Below are positions 13,014-61,000 of a stretch of DNA of 64,000 bases, in pieces. Below the pieces are notes generated by a model. It saw only the letters and a program-made list of their open reading frames with translations, did not search any database and had not been told where the DNA came from. The position numbers and the translations under genes are program-made. This stretch comes from Rhodoferax mekongensis (GTDB taxonomy: Bacteria; Pseudomonadota; Gammaproteobacteria; Burkholderiales; Burkholderiaceae_C). The stretch is taken from assembly GCF_032191775.1 (NCBI RefSeq), contig NZ_CP132507.1, forward strand, positions 3,249,001 through 3,313,000. Direction: 5' to 3'. Each line of letters starts with the position of its first letter. The stretch's first letter is position 1.

Positions 13014-13080
13014 GCCGCACACCCAAGCTGCACCCTTACAACCACGGTATGCTAGACGTCTGACGTCTTCAGGCTACCCC

Positions 13081-15333
13081 ATGTACGCTTGCCTTTTCTT
13101 TCTCGCCGAGGGGCTCCGCCCCTTCCGAAAAGCCGCCCTCTGCGCACTCTTGTGCTGCACTCTGAGCAGCCACGCCCAGGACAGACGCAGCGTCACCGAA
13201 CCCACTCTGCCCACCACCGTGTGCACGACGCTGGAGCCTCGTAGCACCGGCAACGAGGCAGCAAGGCTGCAAGCCGCCCTCAACGCTTGCCCTGCCGGCC
13301 AGGCCCTGAAGCTGCAACGTGGACCGCTGGGCGACCGGTTCATGTCCGGCCCCTTGCGCATACCTTCCGGCGTCACCTTGTGGATCGATGCGGGCACCAC
13401 CTTGGCCGCCAGCACCCGGCCGGCGGACTTCGACACGGGCAGTGGCCAATGCGGCCGAATCGACGCGCTGGGCAAGGGTTGCCAGGCCCTGCTCACCCTG
13501 GAGAACACCGAGTACAGCAGCGTCATGGGCGAGGGAGAAATCCTGGGCCAGGGCGACCAGCGCATGGAGGGCAGCACCGAGACCTGGTGGCAGCTGGCGC
13601 GCCGCGCCCAGCGCGAAGGCGGCAAGCAAAACAATCCGCGTCTCATCCAAATCAACCAATCGCGCAATGTCGTGCTGTACAAAATCCGGCTGCGCAACGC
13701 GCCCAACTTTCATGTGGTGCTGGACCGGGTGCAGGGCTTCACTGCGTGGGGCGTGGTCATTGACACCCCGGCCGATGCCCGCAACACCGACGGCATAGAC
13801 CCCGGCGCGTCCGAAGACATCACCATCGCGCACAGCTTTATCCGCACGGGGGATGACAACATCGCCATCAAGGCACTGCGCGGCCCCAGCCGTTTCATCT
13901 CCGTGCTGGACAACCACTTCTACAGCGGGCACGGCATGTCCATTGGCAGCGAAACCAATGCCGGCGTCAGCGATGTGCTGGTGCGCGGCCTCACCCTGGA
14001 CGGCACCACCTGGGGCCTGCGCATCAAGAGCGATGCAGACCGGGGCGGGCTGGTCGAGCGGGTGCGCTATGAAGATGTGTGCCTGCGCAACAACCGCTGG
14101 CCCCTCAGCCTGACAACGCAATACGCCAAGGGCGCCGTGGGCACGTCCATTCCGCAGTACCGCGACATACGCTTCCAAAGCGTGCGCGGCCAGGGTGGCC
14201 AGCCCGAGCTGCAGGGCTTTGACGAGGCCCATGCGCACCAGGTGCTGCTGGACGGTGTACACATCGAGGGCGCGGCCCCCTGGAAGGTGAGGCACACCCG
14301 TCTGGACACCGCCACGCCCGCCAGCCCCCTGCCCGATTGCACTGCGCGCTGGCTCCCTTTTCCCGAAGCCAAAGACAGCGCGCTTCCTGCACCCACTGGC
14401 CAGGTGCTGCTGGTAGGCCCCGGCCGGCCCTATGCCAGCGTGACCGCAGCGCTGGCCGATGCGCGTGCTGGCGCCACGGTGCGCATTGCCCCCGGCACCT
14501 ACCGCGAAGTCGTACGCCTGCAGCTGCCGGGCCTGCGCTTGCTGGGCGAAGGTGCCACACCGCAGGACGTGGTGCTTGAAGAAAGCCGCAGTGCCGCAGA
14601 CACGGGCACCACCAGCAAGTCTGCCGTGGTGTTTGCGGAGGCCGATGGCATTGAGATCCACAACCTCAGCATCGCCAACCGCTTTCACGAAGAGCACCCG
14701 CAGGTCACCCAAGGCGCCCAAGCCGTGGCGCTGTACGCCAGTGGCGACCGCCAGCGTTTTGTGGGCCTGCGCCTGATCAGCTTTCAAGACACGCTGTATG
14801 CCGCACGCCGGGCCTGCAACAGCGGCGCGGCCTGCCCGCCGGCGCGCCAGTTCTACCGGGACACCGTCGTCATCGGTGCGGTGGATTTCATCTTTGGCAA
14901 CGCACTGGCCTACTTCGATGGCCTGGACATCTACGGCATAGAACGCCCCCAAGTCATCGTCACCGCCCAAAGCTGCCAAACGGAGGGCGAAGTCTGCGGC
15001 TATGTGTTCCGCAACAGCCGCGTCCACGCTGACGCGGCCGTCCAGCACATCGTGCTGGGGCGCCCATGGCGTGCCCTGTCGACGGTCACTTTTTTGGACA
15101 GCGAGCTGGATGGCCGGGTCATTTCCGCCGGCTTTATCGACTGGAACCAGGAAAACCGCTTGCCCACCACCCGCTATGCCGAAGTGAACTCACGGGGCGC
15201 AGGGGCTGTGCCGCCGGGCACCCGTCAGCCTCATATGCACACACTGGATGCAGCGCAGCTACACACTATCTCCAGCGCTAACCGCTACCTGGCTGGCAGC
15301 GACGGTTGGCAGCCGGAGCGCAGCGAACCGTAG
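13081..15333 (+). CDS. polygalacturonase-pectin methylesterase fusion, secreted
   Basis: A 750-aa exported enzyme joining two pectin-degrading domains. After a signal sequence (cleavage near SSHA-QD, about residue 33) comes a GH28 polygalacturonase with NTDGIDP (about 235), GDDNIAIK (about 257), GHGMSIGSE (about 283) and RIKSD (about 314), the full catalytic set. From about residue 440 a CE8 pectinesterase follows, with SFQDTLY (about 569), GAVDFIFGNA (about 599) and LGRPWR (about 659), holding both catalytic Asp residues and the Arg. One protein could thus demethylate and cut pectin. I chose ATG 13081; a longer frame lacks a signal sequence and overlaps the previous gene. No other pectin genes are adjacent. 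Confidence 0.9.
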   Translation: MYACLFFLAEGLRPFRKAALCALLCCTLSSHAQDRRSVTEPTLPTTVCTTLEPRSTGNEAARLQAALNACPAGQALKLQRGPLGDRFMSGPLRIPSGVTLWIDAGTTLAASTRPADFDTGSGQCGRIDALGKGCQALLTLENTEYSSVMGEGEILGQGDQRMEGSTETWWQLARRAQREGGKQNNPRLIQINQSRNVVLYKIRLRNAPNFHVVLDRVQGFTAWGVVIDTPADARNTDGIDPGASEDITIAHSFIRTGDDNIAIKALRGPSRFISVLDNHFYSGHGMSIGSETNAGVSDVLVRGLTLDGTTWGLRIKSDADRGGLVERVRYEDVCLRNNRWPLSLTTQYAKGAVGTSIPQYRDIRFQSVRGQGGQPELQGFDEAHAHQVLLDGVHIEGAAPWKVRHTRLDTATPASPLPDCTARWLPFPEAKDSALPAPTGQVLLVGPGRPYASVTAALADARAGATVRIAPGTYREVVRLQLPGLRLLGEGATPQDVVLEESRSAADTGTTSKSAVVFAEADGIEIHNLSIANRFHEEHPQVTQGAQAVALYASGDRQRFVGLRLISFQDTLYAARRACNSGAACPPARQFYRDTVVIGAVDFIFGNALAYFDGLDIYGIERPQVIVTAQSCQTEGEVCGYVFRNSRVHADAAVQHIVLGRPWRALSTVTFLDSELDGRVISAGFIDWNQENRLPTTRYAEVNSRGAGAVPPGTRQPHMHTLDAAQLHTISSANRYLAGSDGWQPERSEP

Positions 15334-43960: not shown

Positions 43961-44255
43961 GGTGCTTGAGGAGGTAACGATAAACAAATCCCGGAAACGA
44001 GAAAGTAAGGAAAAGCGTCGCGGTGATGGCATAAAACTCCCAGCCTTGGGGAGCAATCTGACCGGCATTCTTTTCCAGAAGCAGCCCCAAACCACCGACC
44101 AAAAAATAGAGGACCACCAATTCGACCAAACGCAGAGCGAGCGACTTGGAAGCTGAACCAAAGAAGCCGAAAAAGCGGGAGGTCGCGAACGGCAAATTCG
44201 CCGCGATCAGCCCGGCCGACAACAGGACCAGGACGTACGGCGAATTACCCATCAT
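43953..44255 (-). CDS. DUF2818-family membrane protein
   Basis: A 100-aa protein with three hydrophobic helices (VLVLLSAGLIAANLPF, ALRLVELVVLYFLVGGLGLLLE, ITATLFLTFSFPGFVYRYLL). DUF2818 proteins follow nuoN in betaproteobacteria, as here (31 bases after its stop). They may be an accessory subunit or assembly factor of complex I, which is inference from position. I chose ATG 44255; an ATG one codon later is equally possible. Confidence 0.88.
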   Translation of the reverse strand: MMGNSPYVLVLLSAGLIAANLPFATSRFFGFFGSASKSLALRLVELVVLYFLVGGLGLLLEKNAGQIAPQGWEFYAITATLFLTFSFPGFVYRYLLKHHD

Positions 44256-44286
44256 TTGCAAGACCCGGGAGGAAAACTGGCTGCGA

Positions 44287-45777
44287 TCACATGCCCAGCA
44301 TTTGCCGCACCGATGATGCACACAGGGCCATCAGGCTGCCAGGGGCCAATCCGAGAACCAGGACCAATGCACCATTGATGGAGAGCACTACGCGCACGTC
44401 AGCGGGCGCGTTAACCGTTGTCGCGGTAATCGGCTCATCGAAATACATGACCTTGACCAAACGCAGGTAGTAGAAAGCACCCACTAGCGACATCAAGACT
44501 GCAAAGACCGCCATTCCCACATAAAGTGGCTGACCGGAAACCACCAAGGCTTGCAACACTGAGAGCTTGGCATAGAACCCGACCATCGGAGGAATACCTG
44601 CCAGAGAGAATGCGCAAATCGCCATGACGGCGGCATACAGCGGGCTACGCTGATTCAAGCCTGCAAAGTCAGAAATTTCTTCGCTTTCGAAACCTTCACG
44701 GGACAAGAGCAGGATGACACCAAAAGTAGCCAGCGTAGTCAGCACATAAGTGATGACATAAAACATCGAAGAGCTGTAGGCGTTGGCGGCAAAGGTCACT
44801 GCATCACCGTTCACTACGCCGGACATCAAACCCAACAATACGAAACCCATTTGGGAAATCGTGGAAAACGCCAACATGCGTTTCAGGTTGGTCTGGGCAA
44901 TGGCAGCCAAGTTGCCGATCAACAAGGAGCCTACCGACAGAACCATCAACATCTGCTGCCAGTCGCCAGCCAATGGACGCATGCCTTCCACCAACAAACG
45001 GATGCAGATAGCAAAAGCGGCTAGTTTGGGTGCACCACCGATCATCAAGGTGACTGCCGTAGGCGCCCCCTGATAAACGTCGGGAATCCACATGTGGAAT
45101 GGCACTACACCCAACTTGAACGCGAGACCGGCAACGATGAACACCAAACCGAAAACCAAAACATCCGGACGGATCTGCCCACTGGAGATGGACTTGAACA
45201 ACTGTGTGATATCCAGCGTGCCGGTGGCACCATACAACATGGACATGCCGTACAGCAGAAAACCGGAAGCCATGGCACCCAGAACAAAGTATTTCATCGC
45301 CGCTTCAGTGGCCGCCACATGGTCCCGACGTAAGGCAACCAATGCATAGCTGGACAAAGTCAACAACTCCAAACCCATGTACGTCAACAACAGATTGTTA
45401 GACGAAATCATGATGAACATGCCGAGCAGAGATAGCATGTTCAGTGTGAACAATTCGCCGCCACGAAGCATGTCGCGATGGCCTGCGTAAGGACGCCCGT
45501 ACACCAGAGACACCATGACGGCAATCGCTGCGAAGCACTTCAGCCAATTGCCCATTGCATCGCTCACGACCATGTTTCCAAAACCATAGTAGGTCTGTCC
45601 GGCCATCGCCAAGTGAGCTTCCAAGGCGGCAACCACCGCCAGCGTCAACATGGTCAGGACATAGGTGAGGTTGCGCAGGGGCGTCTTTACTCCCAGATCG
45701 ATCAACAGGATGGCGCACGCCATCACCATCAAAACGATCTCTGGATACACCGTGATCCAACTGATTGTGTCAATCAT
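44287..45777 (-). CDS. nuoN: NADH-quinone oxidoreductase subunit N
   Basis: A 496-aa, about 14-helix antiporter-like subunit of the complex I membrane arm. The conserved lysine-bearing helices ([22 protein letters not shown], with [15 protein letters not shown]) identify the proton-channel core. Last of the nuo genes. Confidence 0.96.
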
Positions 45778-45801
45778 CTTTCGTCTCTCAATTCAGTTTG
45801 A

Positions 45802-47277
45802 TCAGTTCAATTTGGAAATGGCAACATGCTTCAGCAGTTCTGCCACCGACACGTCCATCACATCCGTGAAGGGCTTGGGATACAAGCCCATGACGAGCAC
45901 CGCAATCGCCAGCAAGCCGAGCATCAGAAATTCACGGGCGTTGATGTCTGTGAGTTCTTTGACATCATCGTTGGTCACAGGGCCCAGGTACACGCGTTTG
46001 AACATCCAAAGCGTGTATGCCGCACCGAAAATAAGGGCACTGGCTGCCGCAAAACCAATCCAGAAATTGAACTTGACTGCACCCAGAATGACCATCCACT
46101 CACCGACGAAACCTGCAGTTCCCGGCAAGCCGCAGTTCGCCATGGCAAACAGCAAAGCAAAAGCTGCAAACTTGGGCATGGTGTTCACTACACCGCCGTA
46201 GCTGGCAATTTCGCGGGAGTGAACACGGTCGTACAACACACCAATAGACAAGAACATGGCGCCGGACACAAAACCGTGCGCAATCATCTGCACCAATCCG
46301 CCTGAAACGCCCAAGTCATTGAAGATGAAAAAGCCGAGAGTCACGAAACCCATGTGCGCAACTGACGAATAGGCTACAAGCTTTTTCATGTCCTGTTGCA
46401 CCATCGCGACCAGGCCCACATACACGACGGCAATCAACGACAGCGCCACCATGAAGCCGCCATAGGCATGCGCAGCATCAGGAGCGATAGGCATTGAAAA
46501 ACGCAAGAAACCGTAGGCGCCAAGCTTCAACATGATCGCCGCTAGCACTGCAGAGCCTCCCGTAGGAGCTTCCACGTGCACGTCAGGCAGCCAAGTGTGG
46601 ACGGGCCACATGGGGACCTTCACTGCGAAGGCCGCAAAAAATGCAAAGAACAGCAACGTTTGGGCCGTCTGCCCCAAGGGCAGCGCATGCCACTTCGTCA
46701 GATCAAAACTACCGCCGGACTGGGTGTACAGGAAAATCAACGCAATCAGCATCAACAATGAACCCAGAAGCGTGTACAAGAAAAACTTGAACGCTGCATA
46801 GATCTTGTTGGGACCACCCCAGATACCGATGATCAGGTACATCGGGATCAAGGTTGCCTCAAAGAACACATAAAACAGCATGCCGTCCAACGCGGAAAAC
46901 ACACCGATCATGAGCCCACTCAATATGAGGAACGCGCCCATGTATTGATTGACGCGGTGGGTAATCACTTCCCATGCGGCAATCACGACGATCACCGTGA
47001 TGAATGCGGTCAAGGGCACAAACCAGAACGAAATGCCATCCAACCCGAGGTGGTAATTGACATTGAAACGTTCAATCCAAGGAACGTTTTCGACAAACTG
47101 CATGGCAGCTGTGCTGTTGTCGAACTGTCCGTACAAAGGCAGGGTCAACAACAAGCTCACAACAGCACCGATCAACGCCACCCATCGCACTGCATTGGCC
47201 TGCTCATCACGCCCGAGCGCAAGCAGCAAGACACCAAAGGCAATCGGCACCCAAATAGAAAGGCTCAACAAACCCAT
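45802..47277 (-). CDS. nuoM: NADH-quinone oxidoreductase subunit M
   Basis: A 491-aa antiporter-like subunit. It has VPMWPVHTWLPDVHVEAPTGGS and DMKKLVAYSSVAHMGF, the conserved Glu/Lys channel residues and broken helices. Lies 12 bases after nuoL. Confidence 0.96.
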   Translation of the reverse strand: MGLLSLSIWVPIAFGVLLLALGRDEQANAVRWVALIGAVVSLLLTLPLYGQFDNSTAAMQFVENVPWIERFNVNYHLGLDGISFWFVPLTAFITVIVVIAAWEVITHRVNQYMGAFLILSGLMIGVFSALDGMLFYVFFEATLIPMYLIIGIWGGPNKIYAAFKFFLYTLLGSLLMLIALIFLYTQSGGSFDLTKWHALPLGQTAQTLLFFAFFAAFAVKVPMWPVHTWLPDVHVEAPTGGSAVLAAIMLKLGAYGFLRFSMPIAPDAAHAYGGFMVALSLIAVVYVGLVAMVQQDMKKLVAYSSVAHMGFVTLGFFIFNDLGVSGGLVQMIAHGFVSGAMFLSIGVLYDRVHSREIASYGGVVNTMPKFAAFALLFAMANCGLPGTAGFVGEWMVILGAVKFNFWIGFAAASALIFGAAYTLWMFKRVYLGPVTNDDVKELTDINAREFLMLGLLAIAVLVMGLYPKPFTDVMDVSVAELLKHVAISKLN

Positions 47278-47289
47278 ATTCTTTTTCTC

Positions 47290-49308
47290 CTACTTGAGCC
47301 AGACGAAATATGTCATCAACACAAACACGCCGATAATCATGATCAGCGCGTAGTGGTACAGATATCCGGACTGAGCCTTGCGCACTACACCGGAAAAGAG
47401 CCCCACCAGCTTCCAGGAACCATTGACAACAGCACCGTCAATCAACGCCTGGTCACCAACCTTCCAAAGCCCGGTACCGAGCAAGCGCGCACCACGTGCC
47501 AGAATGTTTTCGTTGATCCAGTCGAGGTAATACTTGTTCTCCAACAGGGTGTAGACCGGCTGGACCGCACGCTTGATGGCCGCAGGTATGGCTGGAAACA
47601 TCATGTAAAAAACATACGACGTCACCACACCGGCAATCGCCAACCACAGTGGCAGGGTTGTGAGCGAGTGCATCGCCATCGCTGCGGCTCCATGGAACTC
47701 GGCGGACAATTCTTCCATTGCAGGATGCAGCTCGTGGTTAACAAAAATCACACCCTTGAAGAAGTCCCCATGCAACATGGGCTCAATCGTGAAATAACCA
47801 ATCAAGACTGACGGAATCGCCAGTAGCACAAGAGGTACCCACACCACCCAAGGAGATTCATGTGGCTTCGCGTCATGGTGATGATCATGGCCGTGATGGT
47901 CATCATGGTGCGCGTCGGGGTTCTGGTCGAATCTTTCCTTGCCATGAAACACCAAGAAATACATCCGGAAGGAATAGAACGCTGTCACGAACACACCGGC
48001 GAGGACAGCGAAATTCGCAAATCCAGCTCCTGGCAAGTGACTTGCATGGACAGCCTCAATGATGCTGTCCTTGGAGTAGAAGCCCGAGAAGAAAGGCGTA
48101 CCAATCAAGGCCAGCGATCCCAGCAAGGAAGTGATCCAAGTCACAGGCATGTATTTACGCAGACCACCCATCCAACGAATGTCCTGATTGTGGTGGACGC
48201 CCATGATCACAGAACCCGCACCCAAAAATAGTAACGCCTTGAAGAACGCGTGGGTCATCAAATGGAATACGGCAACCGAGTAGGCCGAGACGCCAAGGGC
48301 AACCGTCATGTACCCGAGCTGGGAAAGCGTGGAATAGGCCACCACACGCTTGATATCGTTTTGGATGATCCCGAGGAAACCCATGAAAAGCGCAGTGATG
48401 GATCCGATCACCAAGATAAAGTTGAGGGCCGTATCGCTTAGCTCGAACAAAGGAGACATGCGGGACACCATAAAGATGCCGGCGGTCACCATGGTTGCCG
48501 CGTGAATCAACGCAGAAATGGGTGTGGGACCCTCCATGGAGTCAGGCAACCACACATGCAGTGGAAACTGCGCAGATTTACCCATGGCCCCAATGAAAAG
48601 GCAGATGCAAATCACCGTGACCAACATCCAATCGGTACCCGGAAACACCAGCGCTGACAGATCAGCTGATTTTGCGAATACCTCAGAGTAATTGAGGCTA
48701 CCGGTATAGGCACCAATCAAACCAATGCCAAGAATGAAGCCAAAGTCGCCTACCCGGTTGACCAGGAAGGCCTTCATGTTGGCAAAGATGGCTGTCGGCT
48801 TGTTGAACCAGAATCCGATCAACAAATAAGACACCAGGCCCACTGCTTCCCAACCGAAAAACAACTGCAACAGGTTGTTGCTCATGACGAGCATCAACAT
48901 GGAGAAAGTGAACAGGGAAATGTAGGCAAAGAAGCGGTTGTATCCCTCATCCTCCTCCATGTAACCGACGGTGTAGAGGTGCACCATCAGCGAAACGAAG
49001 GTAACCACACACATCATCATGGCAGTCAAGGAGTCGATCAGGAAGCCGATCTCCATCTTCAAACCGCCGACGACCATCCACGTATAGATCGTTTCGTTAA
49101 AACGTGCACCGTCGTTCACCACAGACATCAAGGTCATGACAGACAAGACGAATGCAACGAAAACACCCAGAATGGTGAGGCTGTGACTGAGCTTGCGGCC
49201 AATCCAATTACCACCAAATTTAGTACCGAACACACCGGCGAGAACCGCACCTGCCAACGGTGCAAGAGGCACCGCCAGCAATGTGGAAGCAGAAAGGGTC
49301 TGGCTCAT
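47290..49308 (-). CDS. nuoL: NADH-quinone oxidoreductase subunit L
   Basis: A 672-aa distal proton pump with the long lateral C-terminal helix. Signatures are GWEAVGLVSYLLIGFW, SAQFPLHVWLPDSMEGPTPIS and DIKRVVAYSTLSQLGYM. A His/Asp-rich stretch (DAHHDDHHGHDHHH, about residues 475-490) lies in a loop, common in betaproteobacterial NuoL. Confidence 0.96.
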   Translation of the reverse strand: MSQTLSASTLLAVPLAPLAGAVLAGVFGTKFGGNWIGRKLSHSLTILGVFVAFVLSVMTLMSVVNDGARFNETIYTWMVVGGLKMEIGFLIDSLTAMMMCVVTFVSLMVHLYTVGYMEEDEGYNRFFAYISLFTFSMLMLVMSNNLLQLFFGWEAVGLVSYLLIGFWFNKPTAIFANMKAFLVNRVGDFGFILGIGLIGAYTGSLNYSEVFAKSADLSALVFPGTDWMLVTVICICLFIGAMGKSAQFPLHVWLPDSMEGPTPISALIHAATMVTAGIFMVSRMSPLFELSDTALNFILVIGSITALFMGFLGIIQNDIKRVVAYSTLSQLGYMTVALGVSAYSVAVFHLMTHAFFKALLFLGAGSVIMGVHHNQDIRWMGGLRKYMPVTWITSLLGSLALIGTPFFSGFYSKDSIIEAVHASHLPGAGFANFAVLAGVFVTAFYSFRMYFLVFHGKERFDQNPDAHHDDHHGHDHHHDAKPHESPWVVWVPLVLLAIPSVLIGYFTIEPMLHGDFFKGVIFVNHELHPAMEELSAEFHGAAAMAMHSLTTLPLWLAIAGVVTSYVFYMMFPAIPAAIKRAVQPVYTLLENKYYLDWINENILARGARLLGTGLWKVGDQALIDGAVVNGSWKLVGLFSGVVRKAQSGYLYHYALIMIIGVFVLMTYFVWLK

Positions 49309-49312
49309 TCGA

Positions 49313-49621
49313 TTAGCCCTTCAAGGTATTGAGCTCATCCACGCTGATACTGGACTTGTTACGAAACAACAAGACCAAAATCGCAAGTCCGATGGCAGAC
49401 TCAGCAGCAGCAACGGTCAAGATGAAGAAAACAAAAATCTGACCGTGCATGTCATGCAGGTAGTGAGAGAAAGCCACAAAGTTGGTATTGACAGCCAACA
49501 ACATCAGTTCGATTGCCATCAGCAACACGATCAGGTTCCGCCGATTCAGAAAAATTCCGACCACGGACAGCGCGAACAGCATCGCGCCCAACGAAAGAAA
49601 ATGTCCAAGGGTCAAGATCAT
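49313..49621 (-). CDS. nuoK: NADH-quinone oxidoreductase subunit K
   Basis: A 102-aa, three-helix subunit (MRP-MrpC-like). It has the conserved buried Glu in [14 protein letters not shown] and a second Glu in [13 protein letters not shown]. The start overlaps the nuoJ stop by 4 bases. Confidence 0.96.
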
Positions 49622-50256
49622 GCTTTTGGCTCCGAAACTTCAGCAACTGGCGCAACCGCTGCTTGGGTTGCGTCCATTTTGACGACGGTCATACGGTCTG
49701 CAGAACGAACACGGACCTGATCGCCAGGGGAGACGTATTTGCTGTCCTTGCGCGCACGCAATGTCAAAGCGATCGCAGCAATCATCGCTACCAACAAAAT
49801 GGCAGCTGCCACCTCAAGCTGCACCAGATATTGCGTGAAAAGCAACTTGCCCAGTTCCTTGGCATTGTTCGCTTCGGCAGCGGCCGCTACAGCATTGGGA
49901 TCATCGACGACGCGGAATCCGCCCATCAAGACTGCGGCCATTTCCAGTGCGATCACTACACCGACGATGGCAGCCAGAGGGAAATGCTTCCAGAAGCCGA
50001 CGCGCAGGTTCTCAACGTTGATATCCATCATCATCACGACGAACAGGAACAACACCATGACAGCACCCACGTATACCAGCACCAGCGTGATGGACAGGAA
50101 CTCGGCCTTCAACAGCATCCAGATCATGGCGGCTTGGAAAAAGGTCAGGACCAGATACAGGGCTGCATGCACCGGATTCCGCGCTGTAATTACGCGGAAC
50201 GCGGCGAATAGCAACACCGCAGAAAAGACGTAAAAAAGTCCAGTCGTTACGTTCAT
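49618..50256 (-). CDS. nuoJ: NADH-quinone oxidoreductase subunit J
   Basis: A 212-aa membrane subunit with five helices. The family landmark is [20 protein letters not shown]. The C-terminus is longer than in E. coli (184 aa) and Ala/Val-rich. Confidence 0.95.
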
Positions 50257-50281
50257 GATTCAAGGGCTTTCTTGCGGCAAT

Positions 50282-50800
50282 TCATCGGTATTTGGCGTCA
50301 GCCTGCTTGTTGGCAGCAATCTCGGATTCGTAGCGATCACCGACTGCCAGCAACATGTCCTTGGTGAAGTACAAGTCGCCACGCTTCTCGCCGTGGTATT
50401 CCAAAATGTGGGTTTCCACAATGGAGTCGACTGGACAGCTTTCTTCACAAAAGCCGCAGAAGATGCACTTGGTCAAGTCGATGTCGTACCGTGTTGTACG
50501 ACGGGAACCGTCATCGCGAACATCCGATTCAATCGTGATCGCCATGGCTGGACAAACAGCCTCACACAGCTTACATGCGATGCATCGCTCTTCGCCGTTT
50601 TCATAGCGTCGCAAAGCGTGCAATCCGCGAAAACGTGGAGAAAGAGGAGTTTTCTCTTCAGGGAATTGAACGGTTACCTTGCGACGGAACAAGTAGCGGC
50701 CCGTTAAAGCCATTCCCTTCATCAGTTCCAACAAAAGGAAGCTGCTCAGGAAATCCTTCAAAGAAAACGCAGGTGTAGAACGTTGAATAGTTGCGGTCAT
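50282..50800 (-). CDS. nuoI: NADH-quinone oxidoreductase subunit I
   Basis: A 172-aa peripheral subunit carrying clusters N6a and N6b. Two 4Fe-4S motifs are visible, [12 protein letters not shown] and [13 protein letters not shown] chose the MTATIQR start, which leaves a 13-base gap after nuoH; the longer frame would overlap it. Confidence 0.96.
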
Positions 50801-50813
50801 TTCGATTGCCCTT

Positions 50814-51890
50814 TCAATTCCAGATGTTGAAAGGTGTCTGCATCCAGACGCCAACCACCAGCAGCCAGACCAGAGTCACAGGAATAAACACTTTCCAGCC
50901 CAGACGCATGATTTGGTCGTACCGGAATCGGGGAAAAGTCGCGCGAATCCAGATGAACAGGCTAACCATGAAAAATGTTTTGGCACCCAACCAGATCCAT
51001 CCGGGGATGAAATCCAGGGCAGCCACCGGTGAATACCAGCCGCCCAAGAACATCACCACCGCCAAAATGGAGACCAGCCACATGTTGACGTACTCGGCCA
51101 AATAAAACATGGCAAAGGACATACCCGAATACTCGACCATGTGTCCCGCAACGATCTCAGCCTCACCTTCGACGACGTCAAACGGGTGGCGGTTGGTCTC
51201 GGCCAGGCCGGAAATGAAATACACCACGAACACTGGCAGCAAAGGCAGCCAATTCCAAGACAAGAAACTCAGACCTTTGTCGGCGAAATAACCTTTGCCT
51301 TGACCCAGCACGATTTCAGTCATGTTCATGGAACCCGCGACCATCAGCACGATGACCAAGCAAAACCCCATCGCGATTTCATAGCTCACCATTTGCGCAG
51401 ACGCGCGCAAAGCCCCCAGAAAGGAGTACTTGGAGTTGGAGGCCCACCCGGCGATTACCACACCGTACACCTCAAGCGAGGTGATGGCCATCAAGAAAAG
51501 TAAGCCGGCATTAATATTTGCCAGGGCCACATCGGGACCAAACGGAACCACCGCCCAGGCAGCCAAAGCGGGCATGATAGTGAGAATGGGGCCGATGAAA
51601 AACAACCCCTTGCTCGCAGCGGTCGGCACCAAGATTTCCTTGGTCAGGAGCTTGAGGGCGTCGGCAATAGGTTGTAACAGACCACCCGGGCCCACACGGT
51701 TCGGCCCGAGACGTACCTGCATCCATCCCAAATATTTTCGCTCCCACAAAGTGAGATACGCGACGGCACCCATCAGCGGCAAAACCAACACGACAATCTT
51801 GATGAGTGTCCAAATTACCGGCCATATCGCAGCAGCCCAGGCAGGAGCCGCAAACAAGCCCAATCCGAAGTTGTAGATTGCATCGATCAT
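50814..51890 (-). CDS. nuoH: NADH-quinone oxidoreductase subunit H
   Basis: A 358-aa subunit forming the quinone channel at the arm junction. It has [21 protein letters not shown] near the N-terminus and [29 protein letters not shown], both hallmarks. Overlaps nuoG by 4 bases. Confidence 0.97.
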
Positions 51891-54010
51891 GCGGCCACCT
51901 CTTGTACAGCGCGCGCATCGGCAGTCAACTGCAATGATCCGGAGCGGCGCACCATGCCGTCCAACTGATAAATACTGGCAACCGCCGGTCGGACTTCAGC
52001 AGGAGTCAAATCGATACTGCCGTTGAAGGTATTGTTGAGCCGATCTGAGGCGACGGCTTTGCTATCAATTCCGGTCGTGGCCATCGCAGACAGTACGTCC
52101 TGCGTAGATTCAAAACTCATTCCCGGCACATCCAGCAAATTAGCCAACACGCGCAAAACCTTCCATGCGGGACGGGTCTCACCCAGCGGTTTGACTACCG
52201 CATGGAAGCTTTGAACACGTCCTTCAGCATTTGCGAAAGAACCGGATGTCTCAGTGAAGGGCGCAATGGGGAGCAACACATCACTGAAGGACATGTTCGA
52301 TTTGAAAGGGCTCAAAGTCACAACCATTTCAGCACCCATCAGACCTTGCTTCGCAGCTGCACCGGTTGCTGAATCAAACTCAGGCTCCACATTCAACAAG
52401 ATTGCTGCCTTGAGTGCACCGGTCAGCATCTGGCCTGCACTAAAGCCATCAGCAGCTGGCAATGCACCAACGGCATAGGCACCCACTGTGTTGGCGGCTT
52501 CCGTCAAGAACCCAACTGTCGCACCTGTCTGAGCACCAATCCAATTGGCAATGGTCGCCAAGCTGCTGGATTTGGCATGGTGCGCAACCGCATTGCCCAG
52601 AAGAATAGCCTTGCGTTCCCCACCCAACAGCGAAGCAGCAACAGCTCGCGCAGCGTCTGTTGCGGTTCCCGATACGGGTGCTTGTACGCCAGCCTGCTCG
52701 CCGACTGCTGTAGCAATGTCGGCCAGGGCTTGAGCCCACACCGCGGACTCAATCACTTGCATGGAAGCAAGTGGCATAGCCCAGTCTTGAACAGAATCTG
52801 CAATCGCATGTACACGGGCTCCTGCCTTGCAAGCTTGGCGGATGCGTTGAGCAAACAAGGGGTGATCCTTGCGGAGATTTGCGCCCACAACTAACACACG
52901 CTGCAAAGTGCTCAAAGCCGAGATAGAGGTACCCAAATAAGGAACACCATTTGGACGTGCAAACTCTGCGTGGCGCAAACGGAAATCCACACTGTCGGAT
53001 CCGAAGCCATTCATGAGGCTTTTCGCCAAGAAAAGCTCCTCCAGCGTGCTATGCGGGCTTACCAAAGCGCCCACAGTGTTCGCTCCATGGTTAGCCTTGA
53101 TCTGCTTCATGCCATTGGCGACATACTCGAGGGCGGTCTGCCAGTCGACCGCCTTCCATTCACCACCCTGCTTGATCATGGGCGATGTCAAACGGTCAGC
53201 ACCGTTCAAAGCTTCGTAAGAAAACCGATCCCGATCCGCTATCCAGCACTCGTTGACCGCTTCGTTTTCCAGCGGGACTACCCGCATTACCTGGTTATTC
53301 TTGACCTGAACAATCAGATTGGCACCCGTCGAATCATGGGGACTCACTGATTTGCGTCGAGACAATTCCCACGTCCGTGCGCTGTATCTGAACGGCTTGC
53401 TGGTCAATGCACCGACAGGGCAGATATCGATCATGTTGCCGGAAAGTTCGGAATCAACACTTTGACCGATGAACGTTTCAATTTCGGCATGTTCCCCGCG
53501 GTGTGACATACCCAATTCCATGACGCCGGCCACTTCCTGACCGAAGCGCACGCAACGTGTGCAATGGATGCATCGGCTCATTTCTTCCATAGAAATGAGG
53601 GGGCCCACGTCTTTGTGGAACACGACACGTTTCTCTTCTTCGTATCGGGAAGATGAACCACCGTAACCTACAGCCAAATCCTGCAGTTGGCATTCACCAC
53701 CTTGATCGCAGATCGGGCAATCCAGCGGGTGATTGATCAAGAGGAATTCCATCACAGACTTCTGCGCCTTGATAGCTTTGTCACTCTTGGTTCGGACGAT
53801 CATTCCATTGGTGACAGGCGTTGCACATGCCGGCATGGGCTTGGGCATTTTTTCCACGTCCACCAGACACATACGGCAGTTCGCCGCAATGCTCAGCTTT
53901 TTGTGATAACAAAAATGGGGGATATAGGTGCCAGCCTTGTCCGCAGCATGCATCACCATGCTGCCTTCAGCAATTTCCACCTTTTTGCCGTCGAGTTCGA
54001 TTTCAATCAT
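51887..54010 (-). CDS. nuoG: NADH-quinone oxidoreductase subunit G
   Basis: A 707-aa iron-sulfur subunit. N-terminal 2Fe-2S ligands ([18 protein letters not shown]), the N5 His/Cys cluster region ([11 protein letters not shown]), N4 ([14 protein letters not shown]), then a degenerate molybdopterin-oxidoreductase domain. Gap of 13 bases to nuoF. Confidence 0.97.
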
Positions 54011-54023
54011 CTTGTGGACTCGC

Positions 54024-55376
54024 TCAAACGTAAGCCGGGACCATGCAGGTCTTGTGCTCTACGTGATACTCAAATTCATGACGGAAATGCTTGATCATGG
54101 CGCGCACAGGCATCGCCGCAGCATCACCCAACGCACAAATCGTTCGGCCTTGGATGTTCTCTGCAACGTTATCCAGCAAATCCATATCGCTAGGACGACC
54201 TTGTCCACCTTCGATGCGGTCAACCATGCGAGATAACCAACCCGTACCTTCGCGGCAAGGCGTACATTGTCCGCAAGATTCATGCATGTAAAAGTAGCTC
54301 AGACGCTGAAGCGCTTTGACCATACAACGGGTCTCATCCATGACGATCACAGCACCTGAACCCAACATGGATCCGGCTTTTGCAATCGAGTCATAGTCCA
54401 TTGTGCAATCCATCATGATGGAGGCTGGCAATACCGGCGATGAAGATCCCCCGGGAATAACAGCCTTAAGCTTTCTACCACCGCGCACACCGCCGGCTAA
54501 CTCCAATAGTTTGGAAAACGGGGTTCCCATCGGAATTTCGTAGTTTCCGGGGCGCTCCACGTCACCACTCACAGAGTAAATCTTCGTGCCACCGTTATTG
54601 GGCTTTCCACACTCGAGGTAGGCCTGGCCACCATTGCGAATGATCCAAGGTACAGCCGCAAATGTCTCTGTGTTGTTAATGGTCGTCGGCTTGCCGTACA
54701 AACCAAAACTGGCCGGGAACGGTGGCTTGAATCGTGGTTGGCCCTTTTTCCCTTCCAAGGACTCCAGCAACGCGGTCTCCTCGCCGCAAATGTAAGCCCC
54801 GAATCCGTGGGCCGCATGCAACTGAAAGCTGAAGTTGCTGCCGAGAATGTTGTCGCCCAAAAAGCCTGCTGCCCTTGCTTCTTCCAAAGCCGCTTCGAAG
54901 CGATCATAGGAAGCGAAGATTTCACCGTGGATATAGTTGTAACCCACCGTGATGCCCATCGCATAAGCGGCAATGGCCATACCTTCAATCACAATGTGCG
55001 GATTGAATTGCAGGATGTCTCGATCCTTGCAGGTGCCGGGCTCGCCTTCATCCGAATTACAAACCAAGTACTTCTGCCCAGGGAATTGGCGGGGCATGAA
55101 GCTCCATTTCAGTCCAGTCGGGAAACCGGCTCCGCCTCGACCGCGCAAGCCGGACTCTTTGACAGTGGCAATGACCTGGTCTTGTGTCAGACCCTCACCG
55201 CCATCCTTGCCCAGAATCTTGCGAAGCGCCTGATAGCCACCACGTGCAACGTAGTCCTGTAAGCTCCAATTGGATCCATTCAATCCTGCATAAATTTGTG
55301 GATTGATGTGCCGGTCATGAAAACAGGTTTCAGTACCCTTGGCACTGAACTTTGCCAATATCGTATCTGCGCTCAT
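54024..55376 (-). CDS. nuoF: NADH-quinone oxidoreductase subunit F
   Basis: A 450-aa NADH-binding flavoprotein subunit. FMN/NADH site [13 protein letters not shown] and [13 protein letters not shown], and the N3 cluster motif [15 protein letters not shown]. The MSADTIL start overlaps the nuoE stop by ATGA; the long upstream frame is out of register with that coupling. Confidence 0.97.
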
Positions 55377-55864
55377 GCTTGTCCTTCCGAGGCACGCAGT
55401 TCGTCGACCAGTTGGTCCAGCTTGTCGTTCGACATAAAGCTGCACATTGCACGATCGTTCACCAACATCACTGGGGAATCTGCGCAGGCACCCAAACATT
55501 CACTCTGTTGCAGAGTGAACAGACCGTCGGGTGTTGTCTCTCCCATTTGAATACCCAATTTGGATTCCAGATGGTGCAGTGCCTTTTGCCCGTCACGCAG
55601 TTGACACGGCAGGTTTGTGCAAACGTTCAGTTTGAATTTACCAACGGGACGTTGGTTGTACATGTTGTAAAAAGTGGTCACCTCATGGACAGCCATAGGT
55701 GCCATGCCGAGATGCTCGGCAATCACTTTCTCGCTCTCGGCACTGACGAAACCCAGTTCTTGTTGAACGATGGCCAAACAAGCCATCACTGCAGATTGCT
55801 TTTGATCTGCAGGGTACTTGGCGACTTCGCGATCAAAGCGCGATTTGGTGGCAGCGGAGATCAT
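55373..55864 (-). CDS. nuoE: NADH-quinone oxidoreductase subunit E
   Basis: A 163-aa thioredoxin-fold subunit binding the N1a 2Fe-2S cluster through CTNLPC and CLGACADSP. Overlaps nuoD by 4 bases. Confidence 0.96.
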
Positions 55865-57114
55865 CGATCAATCTCTCCAAAAACGATATCCATGGTTCCA
55901 ATAATGGAAACGGCGTCAGCGATCATGTGACCCTTGGCCATCTCGTTCAAGGCGGCGAGATGCACAAAGCCCGGTGGACGGATCTTCAAACGATAGGGTT
56001 TGTTGGCTCCATCGCTCACGATGTAGATGCCAAATTCACCCTTCGGGTGTTCTACAGCTGCGTAGGCCTCACCTTCGGGAACGCGGAAGCCTTCGGTGAA
56101 CAACTTGAAGTGGTGAATCAGCTCTTCCATGCTGGTCTTCATCGCTTCGCGCGATGGAGGTGCAACCTTGTGGTTGTCAGTAATCACCGGACCGGGGTTG
56201 GCTTTCAACCAATCGACGCATTGCTTGATGATGCGATTGGATTGCTTCATTTCTTCCATGCGCACGAGGTAACGGTCGTACACGTCACCTGTTTTCCCCA
56301 CTGGAATATCAAATTCCACTTTGTCGTAGGCATCGTACGGTTGCTTCTTGCGCAGATCCCAAGCGATGCCGGAACCACGCAACATCGGGCCGGAAAAGCC
56401 CATGTTCAAAGCGCGCTCTGGCGCAACGATACCAATATTGACGGTACGCTGCTTCCAGATACGGTTCTCGGTCAGTAGCGTGTGGTACTCGTCTAGGCAC
56501 GCTGGGAAGCGTTGAGCGAAGTCATCGATGAAGTCCAACAGCGAGCCTTGGCGGTTGCGGTTGAGTTCCTCAACTCCTTTCGCATTCCGCACCTTGCTGG
56601 CCTTGAATTGCGGCATCGTTTCAGGCAGATCACGATAGACGCCGCCCGGGCGGAAATACGCCGCATGCATACGGGCGCCACTGGCTGCCTCGTACATGTC
56701 AAACAGGTCTTCGCGCTCACGGAAGGTGTAGATGAGGATGGTCGAGCTGCCACAGTCATTTCCGTGCGAACCCAACCACATCAGATGGTTCAGCAAACGG
56801 GTGATTTCGGAATACATGACGCGGATGTACTGCGCACGAATAGGCACTTCAATACCCAGCAACTTTTCGATGGCCAGGCAATAAGCATGCTCATTGCACA
56901 TCATTGACACGTAATCCAATCGGTCCATGTAGGGAAGCGATTGGATATAGGTCTTGCTTTCGGCCAGCTTTTCAGTAGCCCGATGCAACAAGCCAATGTG
57001 CGGATCAGCGCGCTGGATAACTTCGCCATCCAACTCGAGCACCAAGCGCAAAACTCCGTGCGCCGCAGGGTGCTGCGGGCCGAAGTTCAATGTGTAGTTC
57101 TTAATTTCAGCCAT
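55861..57114 (-). CDS. nuoD: NADH-quinone oxidoreductase subunit D
   Basis: A 417-aa subunit with the quinone-site segments [21 protein letters not shown] and [17 protein letters not shown], and a C-terminal [12 protein letters not shown]. Separate from nuoC, unlike the fused nuoCD of E. coli. Confidence 0.97.
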
Positions 57115-57125
57115 GCGTCAACTGC

Positions 57126-57734
57126 TTACTGCAGGCCTCCGTATTTGTCTTCACGAATGATGCGAGGTGTGATTTCACGCGCTTCAATCGTGACCGGCTG
57201 ATACACCACTCGCGCCTGCTCCGCGTCATAGCGCATTTCCACGTGACCGGTCATAGGAAAATCTTTACGGAAGGGGTGACCAATGAAGCCGTAATCCGTC
57301 AGGATACGGCGCAAGTCGTCATGCCCTTCAAAAATGATGCCAAACAGATCGAATGCCTCGCGCTCAAACCAGTTGGCCGAATTCCAGATATCGTTCACGG
57401 AAGCCACCAAGGGCATGTCGTCATCAGACGCCATCACTTTGAGGCGCAGTCGCTGGTTCAAGCTGATGGACAGCAAGTGACTGACGACTGCATAGCGGGG
57501 ACCATCATAGGCACCCTCTTTGTATTCAGAGTAATCGACGCCGCAGAGGTCTATCAATTGCTCAAACTGGCATCCTGGCGCAGTACGCAGAATTTCGGCA
57601 GCGGCGTGGTAGTTCTGGGCAGAGACCAGAACCGTCACCTCGTTCAGCGCGATATCAATGTCCTTGACTTTGTCGCCCAAGGCCGCTTCCACAGCGGCCT
57701 TGGTGACTTCGGGATGAATTGCAAAAGTAGTCAT
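57126..57734 (-). CDS. nuoC: NADH-quinone oxidoreductase subunit C
   Basis: A 202-aa, 30-kDa subunit. The conserved [28 protein letters not shown] and [19 protein letters not shown] are present. I chose the MTTFAIHP start at 57734, 8 bases after nuoB; the longer frame runs into nuoB. Confidence 0.96.
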
Positions 57735-57742
57735 TGGCAGCC

Positions 57743-58222
57743 TCAAGCGCGGGCAATCGTCTGAGTACGACGAATTTTTTGCTGCAATTGCAAAATGCCG
57801 TAAAGCAGTGCCTCTGCAGTGGGGGGACAGCCGGGCACGTACACATCCACCGGAACGATACGATCGCATCCGCGAACAACTGAGTAGCTGTAGTGGTAGT
57901 AGCCACCGCCATTGGCACATGAGCCCATGCTGAGAACCCAACGGGGTTCCGACATCTGGTCGTACACCTTGCGCAGCGCTGGAGCCATCTTATTGCAAAG
58001 CGTACCCGCCACGATCATCAAATCGGATTGACGGGGGCTCGCGCGAAACACTTCAGAGCCGAAACGGCTGATGTCATAGCGCGCTGCAGCGGCATGCATC
58101 ATCTCCACAGCACAGCAGGCCAAGCCGAAGGTCATGGGCCAGATAGAACCGGTTTTTGCCCAATTCACAACCGAGTCGTAACTCGTCGTGACGAAGCCTT
58201 CATTCAAAACGCCTTCAATCAT
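57743..58222 (-). CDS. nuoB: NADH-quinone oxidoreductase subunit B
   Basis: A 159-aa subunit carrying cluster N2, the last electron carrier. Ligands: [20 protein letters not shown] and [13 protein letters not shown]. Confidence 0.97.
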
Positions 58223-58226
58223 TGCG

Positions 58227-58586
58227 TTACTCCCAGTCCAGAGCGCCTTTTTTCCACATGTAGACGAATCCGATGGTCAAGATAACCACAAATTCGACAC
58301 CGATCAGGAACCCGAATAAACCAAGCTCCTTGAGAGATACTGCCCATGGAAACAGGAAGGCTGTCTCCAAGTCAAACAAGATGAACAGGATGGCGACGAG
58401 GTAGTACCGAACGTCGAACTTCATCCGGGCATCTTCAAATGCCTCGAAACCACATTCGTAGGGGGAGTTTTTTGCCGCATCGGGCTTGTTGGGCCCGAGT
58501 ATGTAGCCGAGCACCTGGGGCAACACACCGATGCCGATACCGACCAAGATGAACAGCAGAACGGGGAGATATTGATCGAGGTTCAT
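58227..58586 (-). CDS. nuoA: NADH-quinone oxidoreductase subunit A
   Basis: A 119-aa, three-helix subunit and first gene of the 14-gene nuo operon. The [34 protein letters not shown] segment is diagnostic (key motifs YECGF and RYYLVA). The tRNA-Leu gene lies 64 bases upstream. Confidence 0.96.
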
Positions 58587-58650
58587 CTTGAAATTCTGAT
58601 CACCGTGAAGACCTGCTACAGGAGTGGAACCTGTGCAAGCTGATTTTTTC

Positions 58651-58735
58651 TGGTGCCGTCGGCGAGACTCGAACTCGCACAGCTTTCGCCACTACCCCCT
58701 CAAGATAGCGTGTCTACCAATTTCACCACGACGGC
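58651..58735 (-). tRNA. tRNA-Leu (anticodon GAG)
   Basis: Read on the minus strand: acceptor GCCGTCG pairs with CGACGGC before an encoded CCA, D-arm AAATTGGTAGACAC, anticodon loop CTTGAGG, long variable arm, T-arm with GAGTTCGAGTCTC. 85 bases with CCA. The layout parallels E. coli tRNA-Leu(GAG). Confidence 0.96.
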
Positions 58736-58814
58736 GGCTCTCAGCTGATGAATTTGCGTGAGGAGCCTTTCGGCATTTGCTTATTCACCAGCCCTAGAGT
58801 TTACCCTGAATTTC

Positions 58815-58838
58815 CCCCCTTCACAGCGGGGGGATGGG
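58815..58838 (-). terminator. possible hairpin downstream of secG
   Basis: CCCCCC...GGGGGG inverted repeat about 15 bases past the secG stop, followed on the minus strand by a short A/T stretch. No real T-run, so it may stabilise the message end or only weaken read-through. Confidence 0.35.
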
Positions 58839-58852
58839 ATTTAAAGGGAGGT

Positions 58853-59212
58853 TTATTTCGCTGGAATCTGTGCTGCGCCGGATGCAGGTGTGGCAGGCAC
58901 CGTCTGAGCAGCGGGCACAGCGGCTGGAGCCACCACAGCAGCGCCCTCCAACACCGAGCCGGAGCTGGTTGGGCGCAAATTGCCAAAGTACGCCAGCGCC
59001 AGCGTGCAGACAAAAAACACTGTTGCCAATACGGCGGTGGTGCGGGAAAGGAAGTTGGCACTTCCACTGGCACCAAACAAGCTGCCGGAGCCGCCGCTGC
59101 CAAAAGCAGCACCCATGTCAGCACCCTTGCCGTGCTGTACAAGGATCAACCCAATCATGGCTACTGCAGCCAGCAATTGGACGGTTAAAATGATGGTGAT
59201 AACGATGTTCAT
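58853..59212 (-). CDS. secG: preprotein translocase subunit SecG
   Basis: A 119-aa, two-helix SecYEG subunit. The first helix (IILTVQLLAAVAMIGLILVQ), the loop HGKGADMGAAFGSG-GSGSLFGASGSANFLSRTTA and the second helix are standard; a Pro/Ala-rich tail follows. Lies 25 bases after tpiA. Confidence 0.95.
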   Translation of the reverse strand: MNIVITIILTVQLLAAVAMIGLILVQHGKGADMGAAFGSGGSGSLFGASGSANFLSRTTAVLATVFFVCTLALAYFGNLRPTSSGSVLEGAAVVAPAAVPAAQTVPATPASGAAQIPAK

Positions 59213-59237
59213 AAACTACTCCTAAATTCAAATTCAA

Positions 59238-59990
59238 TCAGACTGCCGACGCGGCAGTGATGATGGTCAAAAAGTCAGCCGCTTTGAGCGAAGCGCCGCC
59301 CACCAAGCCGCCGTCAATATCTTTCTGTGCAAGAAGTTGCTGCGCGTTTGCTGCGTTCATGCTGCCACCGTACAGAATGTGAACGCGATCTGCGTGCGGC
59401 GTGGCAGCAGCCAGTTGCCCACGCAACACGGCATGGACTTCTTGCGCCTGCTCAGGTGTGGCTGTCTTGCCCGTGCCAATGGCCCAAACAGGCTCGTAAG
59501 CGACCACGATTTCGCTGATGCAATGGCCATTGGCATGAATCACAGCAGCCAATTGACGTTTCACCACATCCACTGTTTTGCCGGCTTCACGCTCTTCCAA
59601 TGTTTCGCCCACGCACACAATGGGCGTCACACCACAGGCCAGGGCTTTTTGCGCTTTGGTCGCAACGAGAGCATCGCTTTCACCATGGTACTGGCGACGC
59701 TCAGAGTGACCGACAATGGCATAACGGACACCGAGATCACGCAACATGGCTGCAGAAATCTCACCGGTATACGCGCCAGAGTCAAAAGCTGATACGTCCT
59801 GCGCCCCCACAGCAATAGCACCTACGGGCTTGACGGCAGCCGCGACCTGATGCAAATAAGCCGCAGGTACACATACGGCCACAAGACATGGGGCCACCGG
59901 CATACCAATGTGCAGTTGCTCCAGAAGAGCAGTATTCGCAGCCAGGCTGCCATTCATCTTCCAGTTGCCGGCAATCAGTTTCTTTTTCAT
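59238..59990 (-). CDS. tpiA: triosephosphate isomerase
   Basis: A 250-aa TIM-barrel enzyme of glycolysis. N-terminal GNWKMNG (Lys), catalytic His in IVGHSERR and Glu in [13 protein letters not shown], and [13 protein letters not shown] near the end. The ATG overlaps the stop of the preceding oxidoreductase (ATGA). Confidence 0.97.
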
Positions 59991-61000
59991 GCAGGTTCCC
60001 AATTCAAAACAAGCTTCCCGATATGTTCATTGCTCTCCATCACTGCGTGCGCCTGAGCCGCTGCATCTGACGTTTGCGAAGAGCCCACCGTGAACACCTG
60101 ATGCACGACCGGATTCACGCGTGCGCCAGACAAGAGTGGCCAGACACGTTCGCGTAATGCGCTTGCAATCGCAGCCTTGAAAGCAACCGATCGCGCGCGC
60201 AGAGTGGAACCCGTGACTGTCAACCGCTTGCGCAGTATCAAACCGGCATTGACTTCAGACTGCACACCACCCTGCACGGCGATGATGACCAAACGACCAT
60301 CATCAGCGAGGCACTGGACCTCCTTGGCCACATAAGCGCCGGCCACCATGTCCAGGATGACATCAACACCGCGCCCATCCGTGATTCGCATTGCTTCCGC
60401 CTCGAAATCCTGGGTGCGATAGTTGATCGCCCAGTCGGCACCCAGTTTGAGGCACGCCGCGCACTTCTGATCCGATCCGGCGGTTGCTATAACGGTGGCA
60501 CCCAGGGCCTTGGCCAGCTGGATTGCCGTAACGCCAATGCCACTGGTACCGCCCTGCACCAGCAAGACCTCACCGGATTGCAAGCGGCCACGCTCGAACA
60601 CGTTGCTCCACACCGTGAAGTAGGTTTCCGGTAGACCCGCTGCCTCCACGTCAGACCAACCCTCCGGCACGGGCAGACACTGGGCCACGGGTGCTACACA
60701 TAACTCTGCGTAGCCTCCACCCGCGACCAGCGCACACACACGATCTCCGAGACGAAAACCGGCTCGCTCCAACGCCTCAGCATCCCCTTCGACAATCGTG
60801 CCCGCCACTTCCAGACCCGGGATGTCGGATGCGCCTGCTGGTGCCGGGTACTTGCCTAATCGCTGCAACACATCCGGCCGGTTGACGCCACTGGCGCTCA
60901 CACGGATGCACAACTCCCCTGCCCCGAACTTCGGCGCAGGACGATCCACCAGACGCAAAACGTCCGGTGCACCGGGAGATGTGATTTCAAATGCTCTCAT
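59987..61000 (-). CDS. NAD(P)H quinone oxidoreductase (zinc-independent MDR)
   Basis: A 337-aa reductase of the quinone oxidoreductase/PIG3 branch of the MDR family. It has the N-terminal [17 protein letters not shown], the cofactor site [21 protein letters not shown] and the [20 protein letters not shown] segment, with no zinc ligands. I chose ATG 61000 because the longer frame would read through the dispersed repeat, which ends just before it. Translationally coupled to tpiA. Confidence 0.9.

Follow-up and report, generated by a model that had tools for sequence, protein, structure and literature searches.

The closest described polygalacturonase, PehA of Erwinia (Pectobacterium) carotovora (GH28; PDB 1bhe), is a single-domain protein, and the solved pectin methylesterases of family CE8 (5c1c from A. 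niger, 1gq8 from carrot, the tomato-type 1xg2 and PemA, 1qjv) are chains without a polygalacturonase domain. CE8 is joined to a pectin-depolymerising domain in the multidomain enzymes of Butyrivibrio fibrisolvens, which carry a PL9 lyase and wall-binding domains in chains of ~2000–2200 residues; the same work names a D/D/R site for the CE8 enzyme PmeC5 (PMC12109409). A GH28 domain followed by a CE8 domain is found in WP_209160125.1, a ‘pectinesterase family protein’ encoded on the Ti plasmid pTiAB2/73 of Rhizobium sp. AB2/73. Among the open-licence papers listed, none was recognised as describing a GH28-CE8 protein.

Here we analyse a GH28-CE8 fusion gene in a 64,000-nucleotide stretch of the Rhodoferax mekongensis genome (contig NZ_CP132507.1, positions 3,249,001 to 3,313,000; ‘the window’). 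Its product has the site residues of PehA and adds CE8 after the GH28 domain; its CE8 domain shares the fold and the D/D/R site of the solved pectin methylesterases but, unlike them, sits in one chain with a polygalacturonase domain. It is ~50% identical along its length to WP_209160125.1, which has a longer linker.

Architecture and surroundings of the fusion gene

The fusion gene (Table 1) is a single uninterrupted reading frame of 750 codons and a stop. Its product matches two Pfam models above their curated cut-offs: GH28 (PF00295) at residues 131–398 (E-value 3.9e-51, 174.5 bits, cut-off 22.9) and Pectinesterase/CE8 (PF01095) at residues 459–709 (6.3e-38, 130.6 bits, cut-off 27). The frame and both matches confirm that the two domains form one chain, as the initial annotation had proposed. 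The window also offers a longer frame starting at TTG 12952. The ATG at 13081 is nevertheless the likely start, because the equivalent ATG of Comamonadaceae bacterium OS-4 is preceded, six codons upstream, by a stop in the same frame. Judged by eye, the N-terminus resembles an export signal that ends in SSHA before QD.

Table 1. Features of the fusion locus (window positions) and of the galacturonate operon (genome positions)
Feature	Position	Strand	Remarks
27-base block with TATGCT and near-palindrome AGACGTCTGACGTCT (13054–13068)	13045..13071	+	identical in OS-4
GH28-CE8 fusion gene	13081..15333	+	750 aa; same fused protein in OS-4
Putative N-terminal export signal, residues 1–33	13081..13179	+	by eye; model helix 13–26, low pLDDT
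GH28 endo-polygalacturonase-like domain, residues 34–430	13180..14370	+	closest solved relative 1bhe
Short linker, residues 431–439	14371..14397	+	pLDDT <50
CE8 pectin methylesterase domain, residues 440–750	14398..15330	+	Pfam, PDB and fold matches
Galacturonate operon (L101)	roughly 3,567,600–3,578,500 of the genome (G000)		uronate dehydrogenase, SMP-30/gluconolactonase-type protein, TRAP binding protein, large permease, TctC protein
Galacturonate operon (L101), further genes			GarD, GarL, tartronate semialdehyde reductase, another DctP
GntR-FCD regulator (L101)		opposite to operon	

The best solved relative of the GH28 part is 1bhe (E-value 2.6e-93, residues 34–406), and those of the CE8 part are the fungal pectin methylesterases 5c1e and 5c1c (6e-25 to 7e-25, residues 435–710). 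Alignment to these structures places the GH28 active-site set (three Asp, His, R-x-K) at D237, D258, D259, H284, R314 and K316, and the CE8 set (two Asp, Arg, Gln) at Q547, Q569, D570, D602 and R661. Both sets are complete, and the earlier claim of intact catalytic residues holds for each domain. The equivalent positions are catalytic or site residues in PehA and PemA.

A structure model built on 20 aligned sequences (mean pLDDT 86.4, pTM 0.59) contains two well-predicted domains connected by the poorly predicted linker and does not fix their mutual placement. Folds were compared by re-examining Foldseek matches only, a procedure in which absent matches carry no claim. The GH28 domain matched 1bhe with a Z-score of 57.0 (45% identity, 372 aligned residues), and the CE8 domain matched the best pectin methylesterases with Z-scores of 35–37 (36–37 for 1xg2, 5c1c and 1gq8). 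The GH28 domain is nearer to 1bhe than to the exo enzyme 3jur (Z 39.2); it would most likely cut in endo mode.

In our alignment, unfused GH28 relatives (for example L004, L010 and L015) terminate shortly past a C....F/W..FPE-type motif. The window protein has the equivalent ending, DCTARWLPFPE, followed by the linker and CE8. The GH28 product seems to have been retained whole and CE8 appended without a signal of its own, which would make this an end-to-end joining.

OS-4 encodes the same fused protein at 93% identity, with 750 residues and zero stops. The dN/dS ratio between the two genes is 0.113 overall, 0.084 in GH28 and 0.060 in CE8; both domains evolve under purifying selection. The two genomes align around the fusion gene, over mutL upstream and over the stretch from 15461 downstream. 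A gene for an AlkD-type DNA alkylation repair protein (PF08713; 12273–13013) lies between mutL and the fusion gene and has no counterpart there in OS-4. The neighbours scanned, which are a subset of the window's genes, encode QueG, a GGDEF-EAL protein, MutL, AlkD, EamA and GDPD; within this subset the earlier remark that no other pectin genes surround the fusion holds. Elsewhere in the window, G+C content is 52–55% at 44000–60000 and 52–53% at 6–10 kb, against 57–67% in most other 2-kb steps. The low value at 44000–60000 need not mark foreign genes because NuoN, L, H, G and D are present.

The conserved 27-base block before the gene is a possible promoter or operator, for a regulator of whatever kind. 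With up to two mismatches allowed, 0.09 chance matches to its near-palindrome are expected in the window. A consensus scan for sigma-70-type promoters listed no site before the fusion gene. At the same tolerance the near-palindrome was not found in two galacturonate-operon stretches (L101 and L102); thus, no operator common to the fusion gene and the galacturonate operon was detected there.

Distribution and origins of GH28-CE8 fusions

Eleven further distinct fusions came to light, giving 12 with that of the window (duplicates counted once; G689 and L017 taken as one fusion). GH28 precedes CE8 in all 12. Among 61 genomes drawn from the genus, full-length matches were found in two and any match at 1e-3 in 13. 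The counts for the family, order and phylum draws are lower bounds, since scoring was limited to two candidate stretches in any one genome: at least 8 of 399 genomes matched at 1e-20 in the family draw (three fused: the window's genome G000, G376 and G152), at least 4 of 399 at 1e-50 in the order draw (G000, G511 and G689 fused, G630 unfused), and at least 6 of 398 at 1e-50 in the phylum draw (two fused: G000 and G511). Both domains matched in one frame at 7 of 41 relative loci (L003, L005, L012, L013, L014, L016 and L017), in a scan that used six short query words and is biased to near relatives; locus L018, which runs off its contig, is not among the seven. The Undibacterium fusions and related ones (L013, L016, L017, L104, L105 and L115) adjoin other GH28-like frames of ~630–670 residues, unlike the window fusion, which is a lone gene.

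Matches were also present in 214 plasmid records, four of them with query coverage of at least 80%; among the matches listed, such coverage was seen for two records of AB2/73 and one of Agrobacterium sp. S7/73. The pTiAB2/73 fusion (L063, 7830–10130; 766 residues, zero stops) is located after repC and before transposase genes. The fused relatives that bear names include Undibacterium species, whose name has an aquatic ring, an isolate of unstated origin and a plasmid linked to plant tumours; as a group they favour neither land plants nor algae.

Unfused GH28 and CE8 genes can be neighbours as well. In G877, a genome of the same phylum, they adjoin on one strand, GH28 first, with ~215 bases between the frames, and the CE8 frame starts with a signal-like stretch. 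They adjoin on one strand with CE8 first on a Bryobacterales contig (L040), and on opposite strands on a plasmid of Bradyrhizobium guangxiense that also bears nifA.

The tree of CE8 domains groups the proteins of the window, OS-4 and pTiAB2/73 in one clade (100/100), with the unfused enzymes of Bradyrhizobium and G877 as its neighbours (90/89). Eight other fusions use a different CE8 group: three from Undibacterium, those of a Rhodoferax MAG and a betaproteobacterial MAG, and G376, G152 and G511. By their GH28 domains, however, the pTiAB2/73 and window proteins are not sisters. An AU test on 21 chosen GH28 rows, with groups picked after viewing CE8 scores and deep branches unsure, rejected a single clade of ten fusions against 11 unfused rows (p-AU 0.000468) as well as a clade of window, OS-4 and pTiAB2/73 (p-AU 0.000481). 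A single origin is thus rejected for ten of the twelve fusions, L005 and L017 being outside the tree. The CE8 tree was built on 23 rows and a companion GH28 tree on 54, some identical pairs included, after removal of GH28 rows below 220 bits and of several duplicate or weak CE8 rows. Taken together, the trees call for two or more joinings, or else for joinings combined with swaps or splits of domains; replacement of a domain, or a later split, could look like separate fusions. The acidobacterial fusion L005 may represent a third joining.

Genes for secretion and predicted galacturonate use in the same genome

The fusion gene provides the only GH28 match and the only CE8 match in the complete 3.89-Mb genome. 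PL1 lyases gave no match in this genome or in OS-4 and five in the genus-mate G046. The search for pectin-degrading families covered GH28, CE8 and PL1. The genome contains a type II secretion cluster with GspD, GspE, GspF, GspK and GspL above curated cut-offs and a GspH-like protein below its cut-off. The signal-like N-terminus of the fusion protein and its likeness to PehA point to this system as the putative export route.

A galacturonate operon (Table 1) lies in a stretch that is 88% identical in OS-4. GarD scores 898 bits against a threshold of 731 and GarL 435 bits against 407, uronate dehydrogenase matches 6mfh at 1.2e-93 and 3rft at 7.1e-87, and tartronate semialdehyde reductase matches 1yb4 at 2.1e-119. 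The lactonase-like protein has regucalcin-type matches at 1.8e-29 only, so its substrate is a guess. The TRAP binding protein is of the hexuronate type, with the best match to 4mhf, which binds D-glucuronate and D-galacturonate (PMC7660916). The set for the oxidative GarD/GarL route (uronate dehydrogenase, GarD, GarL and tartronate semialdehyde reductase) is therefore present together. Uronate dehydrogenase performs the first step of oxidative galacturonate use, and a cycloisomerase bypasses galactarate in Agrobacterium (PMC6353982). The galactarate branch is suggested here because GarD and GarL are both above their cut-offs.

Other routes were considered. UxaC had no match in the window's genome or OS-4 (G001), while 7 of 14 control genomes were positive; the isomerase route is rejected for these two genomes. 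KdgD was above its curated cut-off in neither of them; all four matches in the window's genome fit the DapA model best, two above its cut-off and two below. The galacturonate case consequently rests on the GarD/GarL route. A PQQ alcohol dehydrogenase for methanol use was not found above the cut-off, and none of the 14 control genomes had one either, so this search lacks a positive control. In L100 (6050–10410) a second GarD-like protein scores 389 bits, short of the 731 required; next to it are a ManD mannonate dehydratase, TRAP parts and, under its own cut-off, a protein resembling fructuronate reductase. This cluster, in a genome with no UxaC match, is perhaps another sugar-acid route.

Proposed function and its alternatives

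We consider it likely that the fusion is a secreted bifunctional demethylase and polygalacturonase that feeds galacturonate use; its activity, its route and its link to the operon are what we infer from sequence. The CE8 domain would strip homogalacturonan of its methyl esters, with methanol as a product, and the polygalacturonate laid bare would then be hydrolysed by the PehA-like GH28 domain next to it in the chain, in this presumed order. Export would proceed by Sec, and the type II system would carry the protein across the outer membrane. Galacturonate would be taken up by the TRAP transporter, oxidised by uronate dehydrogenase towards galactarate, and converted by GarD, GarL and tartronate semialdehyde reductase to pyruvate and glycerate. 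The steps past uronate dehydrogenase follow general knowledge of these families. Thus, a route can be drawn from methylated pectin to central metabolism with one predicted extracellular enzyme. Its weakest step is the finishing of oligogalacturonates, because neither a second GH28 nor a PL1 lyase was found. The fusion gene and the operon, ~303 kb apart and with no common operator detected, would have to act together.

One alternative is that the fusion serves plant colonisation, by loosening the middle lamella, and not carbon supply. The full-length relative on pTiAB2/73, the unfused GH28 and CE8 neighbours on the Bradyrhizobium plasmid with nifA, and the recurrence of GH28 relatives on rhizobial plasmids speak for such a role. 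However, the genome has a galacturonate route, and none of five pectin-related terms occurs in the AB2/73 genome paper, which hence records no role for the Ti-plasmid fusion; we regard colonisation as unlikely. It is still harder to argue that one half alone is active, with the other binding substrate or being a relic. Fused domains sometimes lose activity, but site residues are intact in both halves and purifying selection on them is similar, making this reading highly improbable. A sequencing or assembly artefact, such as a frameshift joining two genes, can be dismissed because the separate OS-4 genome carries the fused protein in an equally long frame with both domains under purifying selection, and neither there nor in pTiAB2/73 does a stop separate the domains, the sign of an artefact named by the initial annotation.

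Returning to the bifunctional enzyme, both sequence and fold give good support to a single exported chain that would demethylate and cut pectin. The earlier interpretation is, overall, partly supported: the predicted bifunctional exported chain and the exclusion of a frameshift stand, and the operon elsewhere in the genome, beyond the reach of the initial annotation, supports use of the galacturonate set free. Its suggestion of plant-debris or algal pectin use in an aquatic bacterium is a conjecture.

Both families are well known and each half is ordinary, but their combination is uncommon in the genome draws, recurrent, and undescribed in the papers found. A more speculative idea, to which we give little credence, is that GH28 and CE8 were joined several times because coupling in one chain matters. 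The fusion would then be a locally coupled demethylate-and-cut machine allowing growth on methylated pectin with no other GH28, CE8 or PL1 enzyme, and the Ti-plasmid version would act in infection. The fusion would be a compact natural design in which methylated pectin is broken by one protein. The genome is simple in this respect (one GH28, one CE8 and one galacturonate operon found), and the role of the fusion is open to a single-deletion test. If true, the repeated joining of GH28 and CE8 would offer a testable example, on a small scale, of selection favouring physical coupling.
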